Positions 45,720-46,300 of a DNA stretch of 64,000 nt are shown in pieces. The notes below the pieces were generated by a model. It was not told where the DNA came from and made no database searches. It worked only from the letters and a program-made list of their open reading frames with translations. This stretch comes from Terrimonas sp. (GTDB lineage: Bacteria; Bacteroidota; Bacteroidia; Chitinophagales; Chitinophagaceae). A program made the position numbers and the translations under genes. The stretch is from NCBI RefSeq assembly GCF_003075435.1, contig NZ_QCZJ01000011.1, forward strand, positions 62,001 to 126,000. Reading direction: 5' to 3'. The number at the start of each line of letters is the position of its first letter. Position 1 is the first letter of the stretch.

Positions 45720-45750
45720 TTTGGATGCAAACTAAAAAAAATTATCTTTG
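45720..45750 (+). promoter_or_regulatory. Promoter of the tRNA/GIY-YIG locus
   Basis: TTTG (45720-45723), a 19-bp spacer and TATCTTTG (45743-45750) form a full Bacteroidota consensus promoter. The start point would be near 45757, so transcripts would pass the tRNA-Val relic, the tRNA-Arg relic, the GIY-YIG gene and the intact tRNA-Arg. Confidence 0.8.
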
Positions 45751-45770
45751 CAGCCTCAAAAAAAGGTACT

Positions 45771-45826
45771 GTGGCGATAAGGGATGTGGGTATGTAAGGG
45801 GGGCATCTGCCTTACAAGCAGAGGGT
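45771..45826 (+). pseudogene. tRNA-Val(UAC) relic
   Basis: GCATCTGCCTTACAAGCAGA (45803-45822) followed by GGGTC is a normal anticodon arm and variable region with anticodon TAC. The D-arm is degraded (no AGCTCAGTTGG) and after GGGTC the T-arm is replaced by an A-rich sequence. It cannot fold into a complete tRNA. Confidence 0.7.
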
Positions 45827-45857
45827 CGAAAAAGAAAGATGTAATAGATGTAATATT

Positions 45858-45951
45858 GGTCCGGTAGCTCAGTTGGATACCTGCCTGCCGGCAGGCAGGG
45901 AGCATCAGCCTTCTAAGCTGAGGGTCATTGGTTCGAAACTAACCTAAATGA
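45858..45951 (+). pseudogene. tRNA-Arg(UCU) relic interrupted by a palindrome
   Basis: The sequence equals the intact tRNA at 46196 from GGTCCGGTAGCTCAGTTGGA through GGATA, then has a 20-bp insertion, then continues identically from GAGCATCAGCC through GGTTCGAA (45930-45937). After that only a degraded T-stem and acceptor remain (mostly transition differences). The acceptor no longer pairs. A short match ATCACAAA after it echoes the 3' flank of the intact gene, suggesting the whole gene was duplicated. Confidence 0.8.
45880..45899. repeat. 20-bp perfect palindrome in the relic D-loop
   Basis: CCTGCCTGCCGGCAGGCAGG is its own reverse complement. It sits exactly between GGATA and GAGC of the tRNA sequence, with nothing lost on either side. 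Confidence 0.95.
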
Positions 45952-45963
45952 AAAATCACAAAG

Positions 45964-46218
45964 ATGTTTTTTGTGTATGTGATAAGAAGTGAAATTGATG
46001 AACGTTTTTATGTTGGTTTAACTGAAGATGTTGAAAGGAGATTAAAAGAACATAATAGTAAGAAAACAAAGTCAACGAAAGGTTATATACCGTGGAAACT
46101 TTGTTTTTTTGAAACGTTTAAAACAAGAATAGAAGCAAGAAAAAGAGAAATATATTTGAAATCGGGAGTTGGAAAAGAATATATTAAACAAAATTGGTCC
46201 GGTAGCTCAGTTGGATAG
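45964..46218 (+). CDS. Small GIY-YIG nuclease ending inside a tRNA gene
   Basis: An 84-residue GIY-YIG domain protein (URI/UPF0213-like). MFFVYVIRSEIDERFYVGLT carries the paired motif as VYV-x9-YVG, followed by VERRLKEHN with the conserved Arg, and AEAR-type ending IEARKREIYLKSGVGKEYI with the conserved Glu region. The last eight residues (WSGSSVG preceded by N) and the TAG stop (46216-46218) are encoded by the first 23 nt of tRNA-Arg(UCU). It is bracketed by a degraded and an intact copy of that tRNA. The gene is likely an active or recently active cassette; whether it targets tRNA genes is inference. Start ATG 45964 is the only sensible one. Confidence 0.88.
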   Translation: MFFVYVIRSEIDERFYVGLTEDVERRLKEHNSKKTKSTKGYIPWKLCFFETFKTRIEARKREIYLKSGVGKEYIKQNWSGSSVG

Positions 46219-46269
46219 AGCATCAGCCTTCTAAGCTGAGGGTCATTGGTTCGAATCCAATCCGGATCA
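46196..46269 (+). tRNA. tRNA-Arg (anticodon UCU)
   Basis: The cloverleaf folds fully: acceptor GGTCCGG/CCGGATC with one G-T pair, D-stem GCTC/GAGC, anticodon stem TCAGC/GCTGA with loop CTTCTAA, T-stem ATTGG/CCAAT with loop TTCGAAT, discriminator A. CCA is not encoded. The first 23 nt overlap the end of the GIY-YIG gene. A terminator follows directly. Confidence 0.96.
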
Positions 46270-46270
46270 C

Positions 46271-46300
46271 AAAAGGATTACTGTAAAGTGATCCTTTTTT
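46271..46300 (+). terminator. Intrinsic terminator after tRNA-Arg
   Basis: AAAAGGATTAC (46271-46281) pairs with GTGATCCTTTT (46288-46298) with one wobble and a 6-nt loop, then TTT. It ends the tRNA transcript 47 bp before tex. Confidence 0.9.

Follow-up and report, generated by a model that had tools for sequence, protein, structure and literature searches.

A small GIY-YIG nuclease gene between a palindrome-marked copy and an intact tRNA-Arg(UCU) gene in Terrimonas: a candidate SegB-like homing cassette with relatives beside tRNA genes of other bacteria

In a 64,000-nucleotide stretch of a Terrimonas genome, hereafter the window, a small GIY-YIG nuclease gene lies between an altered copy of tRNA-Arg(UCU) and the intact gene, and the reading towards which we lean is that this locus is a free-standing homing cassette of bacterial chromosomes, similar in kind to SegB, that would target tRNA genes and leave one working copy. 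Genes of this type are associated with tRNA genes well beyond the window, related genomes hold empty sites, GIY lineages are tied to tRNA type, and palindromes form a signature in the tRNA copies. Our literature search (titles and abstracts, with most subscription papers and bioRxiv outside its scope) found no description of such a chromosomal family, and within the same scope no tie to tRNA type or palindrome-marked tRNA copies were described; the locus points to a widespread and apparently undescribed selfish gene family that would invade tRNA genes without destroying them. A cell depends on its tRNA genes, which belong to its best conserved DNA. If the reading is true, such cassettes would be a general influence, so far overlooked, on how many tRNA genes a genome has and on its pseudo-tRNAs and palindromic repeats, and they would account for many of the small GIY-YIG genes and tRNA relics. 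The cassettes would also offer a compact system for studying, one tRNA at a time, how free-standing nucleases are targeted, and a parallel on the chromosome to the SegB-driven amplification seen in phages.

The first-pass annotation of the window had described a degraded and an intact tRNA-Arg(UCU) bracketing a small GIY-YIG ORF, and ARAGORN, Rfam and Pfam agreed with it (Table 1). The promoter-like element and the terminator that it had placed on either side were both located, the duplication of the target tRNA with one copy kept intact is seen at the locus, and the ORF does run into the intact tRNA as had been claimed, its TAG stop lying at 46216-46218 and its last codons and stop being the first 23 nt of the tRNA. 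The intact gene is the only full-length tRNA-Arg(UCU) found in the window's genome; the relic (C11:107858-107951) scored 28.5 bits against the Rfam tRNA model, for which the cut-off is 29. Two features had been missed: the relic's palindrome, which follows nucleotide 22 of the tRNA, precisely where the D-loop ends, and is present in its exact form at five places in the window's genome, and the tRNA-Val(UAC) fragment, which was not detected at the other Arg(UCU) sites examined in the genus. ORFs of at least 40 aa between promoter and tRNA comprise the GIY gene alone on the plus strand and frames of 49 and 46 aa on the minus strand. The flanking gene is named ung-like from its sequence, and the gene flanking the locus on the other side is presumably tex-like.

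Table 1. Features of the tRNA-Arg(UCU) locus, in window coordinates
Feature	Position	Strand	Basis or remark
ung-like (uracil-DNA-glycosylase-like) flanking gene	45026-45703	-	orthologous sites recognised by its linkage to the tRNA
Promoter-like TTTG-N19-TATCTTTG	45720-45750	+	read from sequence; probably native to the tRNA unit
tRNA-Val(UAC) fragment, 26 nt exact, nucleotides 26-51 (anticodon arm)	45803-45828	+	blastn
Pseudo-tRNA-Arg(UCU), copied from the local tRNA: unaltered 5' part, D-loop with palindrome, diverged 3' end	45858-45951	+	
Perfect palindrome CCTGCCTGCCGGCAGGCAGG, 20 nt	45880-45899	.	junction of D-loop and 3' D-stem (22/23)
GIY-YIG nuclease ORF, 84 aa, last 23 nt in the tRNA	45964-46218	+	ORF list, Pfam
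Intact tRNA-Arg(UCU)	46196-46269 (/70)	+	ARAGORN and Rfam, 72.3 bits
Intrinsic terminator hairpin with T run	46271-46306	+	z -5.99

The promoter-like sequence, which we take to be of the Bacteroidota type, appears to be the tRNA's own, as by our reading a similar sequence also lies 5' of tRNA-Arg(UCU) at several insert-free sites. Because the cassette is placed between this promoter and the tRNA it is probably co-transcribed with the tRNA, and it is plausible that an RNase P cut at 46196 would separate the mRNA from its stop codon. The overlap of gene and tRNA recurs: of 27 rows in which an intact tRNA follows the GIY gene within 120 nt, 16 have the stop codon within that tRNA (14 of 25 when doubly listed loci are counted once).

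At the ung/tRNA-Arg(UCU) site in the genus, G007 is clean and empty, whereas the window's own genome (G000), G003 and G011 are full and G001 carries a tandem arrangement spanning contig ends. The G009 tRNA-Arg(UCU) site is also clean, but no ung is in reach, and in G008 a contig end cuts through the site, where a copy and a partial GIY gene lie beside ung (L102). The remaining genomes are in other states: G005 and G006 keep the copy without the GIY gene (the G006 copy being decayed, by our reading), G002 and G010 retain as a remnant only the 3' end of the gene, and in G004 neither gene nor copy is recognisable and the leader is altered. Searching related genomes for the locus with and without its insert, as the first-pass annotation had advised, turned up both kinds, including empty sites. 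The intact tRNA is identical in the empty G007 and the occupied genomes, so that self-cutting is not avoided via a changed target in the tRNA, a point against homing, and resistance through a changed tRNA was ruled out on the same comparison. Beyond the genus, the best 30 family loci, drawn from 79 genomes, included two of the window's genus (the window and the G002 remnant); one of the other 28 (L117) has both GIY gene and copy and 27 have neither, with ung divergently upstream of the tRNA in 10 of those 27. An occupied site was also found outside the best 30 (G025, L160). At tRNA-Val(UAC), eight of the 12 genus genomes have neither GIY gene nor copy. No recent transfer was seen among the genomes compared.

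The proposal that the arrangement is a recurrent tRNA-linked cassette was supported by searches at three depths, which found other GIY-YIG ORFs beside tRNAs in the genus, the phylum and other bacteria. With the Pfam GIY-YIG query in the genus (12 genomes and further regions taken), 51 of 76 small GIY-YIG domains had a tRNA or copy no more than 450 nt away, and 37 had one that ARAGORN calls a tRNA. In the phylum the count was 122 of 137, which is not an unbiased rate because the profile used (A1) was built from tRNA-linked rows only, and the genus Pfam search is the less biased of the two. With the window protein as query against all bacteria it was 29 of 31 domains; by locus, 30 of 31 in this set have a tRNA or copy beside the GIY gene, the exception (L281) lying at a contig end, and the 31 domains are not identical with the 31 loci. 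By our estimate from about 50 tRNAs per 4-6 Mb genome, a random position would be equally near a tRNA in about 1% of cases. The tRNA features lie on the same strand as the GIY gene almost without exception (118 versus 1 in the genus, 266 versus 0 in the phylum and 70 versus 1 in bacteria). A profile of 23 tRNA-linked rows had matches in 131 of 198 Bacteroidota genomes. The all-bacteria scan with the window protein also gave loci from records named Chlorobiota, Patescibacteria, Omnitrophota, Saganbacteria, Acidiferrales, Rhodobacterales, Thermodesulfovibrionales, Paceibacterota and Gracilibacteria. In all, 27 tRNA kinds are adjoined by GIY genes, the genus neighbours being Ala, Asp, Arg(UCU), Arg(CCG), Met, Ser, Val, Pro, Asn, Phe, Leu and Lys tRNAs; on the far side of the GIY gene there is often an altered copy of that neighbour.

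For these counts GIY domains were located with a profile trained on the genus loci, and the phylum loci combined best-scoring matches with hand-picked regions, the first 20 picked mostly for being tandem. Frames longer than 250 aa and short fragments were dropped before the counts of tRNA kind and order, proximity and concordance; the proximity count excluded fragments shorter than 40 aa, which removed L278, L282 and L283. L045, L061, L066 and L069 were dropped as duplicates, and so were L064, L101 and L109 for being long frames or giving no match. Labels came from ARAGORN or blastn: a few relics are mislabelled (e.g., the L071 Arg(UCU) relic is labelled Asp), the counts of intact tRNAs are slightly high because ARAGORN calls some hairpin-bearing copies tRNA (L255, L258, L262), and assembly breaks hide some neighbours.

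It could be argued that the GIY gene is a passive passenger, tRNA genes duplicating by slippage or recombination, their copies decaying, and GIY genes persisting in the neutral gaps. Loci with only a copy or only an array fit such an account, but the proximity and strand counts are far from random, the gene recurs in records of other phyla, and all six sites with a palindrome in the D-arm (described below) have a GIY gene; we consider this explanation very improbable. Linkage to tRNAs is also not universal. The first-pass annotation had held that GIY-YIG genes elsewhere without tRNA linkage, together with old tandem tRNA copies without the ORF, would speak against a cassette, and although most GIY genes are tRNA-linked, 25 of the 76 genus domains are without a nearby tRNA and 18 rows of these form one clade (17 loci). 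Direct repeats were found on the flanks in 14 of these 17 loci (L002, L003 and 15 more), those around L002 and L003 being, by our reading, REP-like palindromic elements. As to the tandem copies, the copy-only sites in G005 and G006 and pseudo-tRNA arrays without a GIY gene do exist, and the arrays count against homing.

The GIY genes stand in two orders relative to the tRNA. Among 128 domains with an intact tRNA it is upstream of the GIY gene in 96 and downstream, as in the window, in 32; the second tRNA-adjacent GIY gene of the window's genome (L004) has the mirror order: intact tRNA-Arg(CCG) comes first, the GIY gene next, and last a tRNA-Arg(CCG) copy interrupted by two palindromes. Most copies upstream of the tRNA retain its 5' part, most downstream ones its 3' part. 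In a tRNA-Val case the GIY gene starts past the tRNA terminator and is followed by a copy and then the start of the same downstream sequence, by our reading. Same-amino-acid tRNA copies flank both sides of 105 of 204 GIY domains longer than 150 nt (the repeat-linked clade excluded), and the other 99, for which contig ends account in part, count against homing. Two to five tandem GIY units were found in 36 of 163 loci, e.g., five units of about 365 nt at a Met tRNA (L171) and four of about 322 nt at a Pro tRNA (L172). We also observed frames of 181 and 210 aa with two GIY matches each (L077, L186), as if adjacent tandem units had fused. In five regions (L043, L075, L083, L091, L110) tandem altered tRNA copies with no GIY gene between them lie beside an intact tRNA of the same kind, most copies bearing a GC-rich hairpin and the period being about 91-117 nt. 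Several GIY fragments, and one GIY gene about 2.5 kb further on, lie at a tRNA-Asp (L092, G009:C53), apparently an old array in decay.

The window ORF matched Pfam GIY-YIG (PF01541) with 61.8 bits (cut-off 22.6; E 7.7e-17), and Y5, Y16, G18, R26, H30 and E62 are invariant in alignments of 23 and 24 rows. We take Y5, Y16, R26 and E62 to be the catalytic Tyr, Arg and Glu residues of GIY-YIG. Arg and Glu are also given as such in PMC2988022. The structure model (pLDDT 88) is a bare GIY-YIG domain, and the closest solved sequences and folds were 1zg2, 1ywl and 7cq2, of the UPF0213 and SLX1 types (sequence E-values of 8.5e-16 for UPF0213 1zg2 and 1.8e-9 for SLX1; Foldseek 2.5e-4 and 1.7e-3), with I-TevI more distant; the window protein is UPF0213/SLX1-like by sequence and fold, a type of nuclease that is either uncharacterised or structure-specific, and is without the DNA-binding parts of I-TevI. 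UPF0213/SLX1 nucleases are not known to be tRNA-linked or mobile, and a literature search on UPF0213 with GIY-YIG and tRNA found no paper. That the protein is a bare catalytic domain with no DNA-binding module is what weighs most against sequence-specific homing and most in favour of a different account, in which an SLX1/UPF0213-like nuclease would recognise DNA hairpins, such as tRNA gene arms and single-stranded GC palindromes, and drive tandem duplication and the spread of palindromes as in REP/RAYT systems, the tRNA being merely the commonest hairpin. The solved relatives, the pseudo-tRNA arrays without GIY and the tRNA-unlinked clade with its direct repeats all fit this account, but GIY clades that follow tRNA type would need some reading of sequence, and the GIY gene is almost strictly co-directional with the tRNA; on balance we judge a hairpin-driven amplifier to be unlikely, and it may overlap with homing.

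Codon comparisons point to purifying selection on the GIY genes, omega being 0.04-0.19 in nine of 11 pairs (the other two gave no dS, and dS exceeded 1 in most of the rest). Such selection, the clades that follow tRNA type, the place of the gene in a tRNA transcription unit and its overlap with the tRNA would also suit a domesticated, host-useful gene acting on tRNA or pre-tRNA (in processing, quality control or a toxin-like role) with the pseudo-tRNA as regulator or decoy. At a single site within the genus, though, the gene is patchy and often decayed, it forms tandem arrays and stands in two orders relative to the tRNA, and those of its solved relatives found here that are characterised are DNA nucleases, all of which make domestication improbable in our view.

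A tie between GIY lineages and tRNA type was apparent from a tree resting on 73 columns, on which tRNA labels changed 57 times versus 140.7 under shuffling, with none of 200 shuffles as low. Twenty Met rows formed a single group (support 83), the Pro isoacceptors came together in part, and Ser isoacceptors were mixed; Asp and Ala were scattered (9 changes in 12 rows and 6 in 10), which counts against homing. The nearest GIY gene of another group lay at the same isoacceptor in 47 of 144 loci (shuffle mean 6.95, maximum 17) and at the same amino acid in 77 (mean 14.3, maximum 27); without the all-bacteria loci the counts were 34 of 119 (5.6, maximum 15) and 62 (11.7, maximum 24). A group here is a family for loci below L253 and a single locus or organism above, so that a few pairs may share a family; L253, L261, L278 and L282, likely same-genus records, were left out. 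The 97 of 144 nearest other-group relatives not at the same isoacceptor also count against homing. Based on the tree and these counts, related GIY proteins tend toward related tRNAs, with switching often between similar tRNAs. The isotype clades could come from old inheritance at tRNA loci rather than from homing. A homologous flanking ORF was absent in 34 of 42 same-isoacceptor pairs (four probably same-genus pairs are all among the eight with homologous flanks), and gene order decays in any case.

The tRNA copies are distinguished by GC-rich hairpins (stem of at least 7 with at least 5 GC), which number 5.09 per kb in relics (47 in 9,237 nt, the spans including inserts between matching halves), 0.92 near cassettes, 0.69 in tRNAs and 0.15 in distant DNA, with none within GIY domains. 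Of 50 distinct inserts of at least 15 nt, 39 are in cloverleaf loops (expected 20.1; D 16, anticodon 10, T 13) and 11 elsewhere, and 34 of the 50 have a stem of at least 5, so not all are palindromes. The bias holds when each tRNA kind and place is counted once (26 of 32, expected 12.8) and for inserts of at least 8 nt (49 of 72, expected 29.2). This bias favours homing. Together with the hairpin density in relics, and the fact that in several tRNA kinds inserts sit exactly at the junction of loop and 3' stem, it also fits a hairpin-recognising nuclease, but the loop bias may instead reflect selection on relic folding rather than choice of insertion site.

The window palindrome or a near copy also occurs at GGATA/G in Arg(UCU), Arg(UCG) and Arg(CCU) copies and in an Arg(ACG) copy of a Chlorobiota-named record, as well as earlier in the D-loop of a Leu(GAG) copy, and a related palindrome lies at the matching point of an Ala copy in another Bacteroidota genome and an Asp copy in a Patescibacteria record. 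In six copies other than Arg(UCU), the sequence ahead of the palindrome is identical to the local tRNA in five and close to it in the Leu copy; the tRNA part of the copies is local while the palindrome recurs. A pattern joining the D-arm to the palindrome start, drawn from known cases, matched six sites in 395 genomes (G000, G025, G115 and G213 already known, G399 and G311 new), all six followed by a GIY gene and a tRNA, and a control pattern had no match in the same genomes. The following tRNA is of the same kind as the copy in five; at L308 an Arg(UCG)-labelled copy is followed first by Arg(ACG), then by Arg(UCG). As the pattern is rare, we regard it as a signature of one subtype and not of the whole family. 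An abundant general REP family was rejected as the sole source of palindromes, the window palindrome being at only five places in its genome and TCCCG-type palindromes only moderately enriched. The latter (TCCCG-N4-10-CGGGA) exceeded a backward control in all 12 genus genomes (21-124 versus 6-27 per genome), and some lie in arrays with a period of 93-96 nt, one beside a tRNA cluster.

Returning to homing, which we prefer, the family would consist of minimal cassettes, each a single-domain GIY-YIG gene adjoining a co-directional intact tRNA; an altered, palindrome-marked copy of that tRNA often lies on the gene's other side. The nuclease, we infer, makes a cut or nick in tRNA genes of its type that have no insert, probably in the arm loops, and the place of the palindrome suggests a cut near the end of the D-loop for the window subtype. 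The break would be repaired from cassette-bearing DNA with the flanking tRNA copies as homology arms, copying the gene in, leaving an intact tRNA and allowing selfish spread. The palindrome, whose place in the loop is observed, would spoil the spare copy both as tRNA and as target, and unequal repair would produce the tandem arrays and decay states found. More tentatively, and as a reading that we think less likely than not, we suggest a new class of minimal mobile element, neither intron, IS nor integrase-borne, in which a nuclease gene of about 250 nt and a short palindrome invade tRNA genes, each time copying the local tRNA, marking the copy by the palindrome at a defined cloverleaf loop and leaving one working tRNA, and which radiates by tRNA type across phyla while a sister lineage does likewise with other palindromic repeats.

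The closest known case is SegB of T-even phages. PMC13096335 describes SegB as a GIY-YIG nuclease that cuts inside tRNA genes and drives tandem amplification, and PMC2988022 places T4 segB between tRNA-Arg and tRNA-Ile. Both SegB and the cassette are GIY-YIG nuclease genes adjoining tRNA genes; the cassette differs in lying on bacterial chromosomes, in its single-domain protein and in having a palindrome-marked copy of the local tRNA. Its lineages also tend to follow tRNA type, whereas the SegB survey, which covered phage and archaeal virus proteins, saw no isotype preference for SegB (PMC13096335). Scans of viral contigs with the window GIY and a Met-type GIY protein, single queries that reach close relatives only, found no relatives, a phage scan gave one weak match and a plasmid scan one match, to yazA; a phage origin of the cassette is not supported by the viral-contig and phage scans.

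Homing endonucleases of group I introns in tRNA genes are alike in placing a nuclease gene at a tRNA and leaving the host gene functional, but here the tRNA is duplicated, not spliced. A group I intron was excluded, as only tRNA reached the Rfam cut-off in the window, and the group I intron endonuclease model TIGR01453 scored 24.3 bits against a cut-off of 56.05; with no Rfam intron model over its cut-off and recurrent tRNA adjacency, the ORF is free-standing, outside introns and inteins and adjacent to its putative target. Integrases and islands at tRNA genes rebuild the tRNA and leave a partial copy marking the other end. The cassette resembles them in both respects and differs in that its unit of copy and GIY gene is about 340 nt with a GIY nuclease only; an integrase-type island was rejected, the insert having no integrase-sized ORF. 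REP/RAYT systems likewise join a small nuclease gene to palindromes and flanking repeats, but here the nuclease is GIY-YIG and not an HUH (Y1) transposase, the repeats are tRNA-derived, and the likeness would be one of working only. Elsewhere in the window's genome, a run at G000:C6:31924-33772 has dense tRNA matches, four of them low (34-41 bits) and one of 18 bits, and is perhaps a mobile or phage-like tRNA array.
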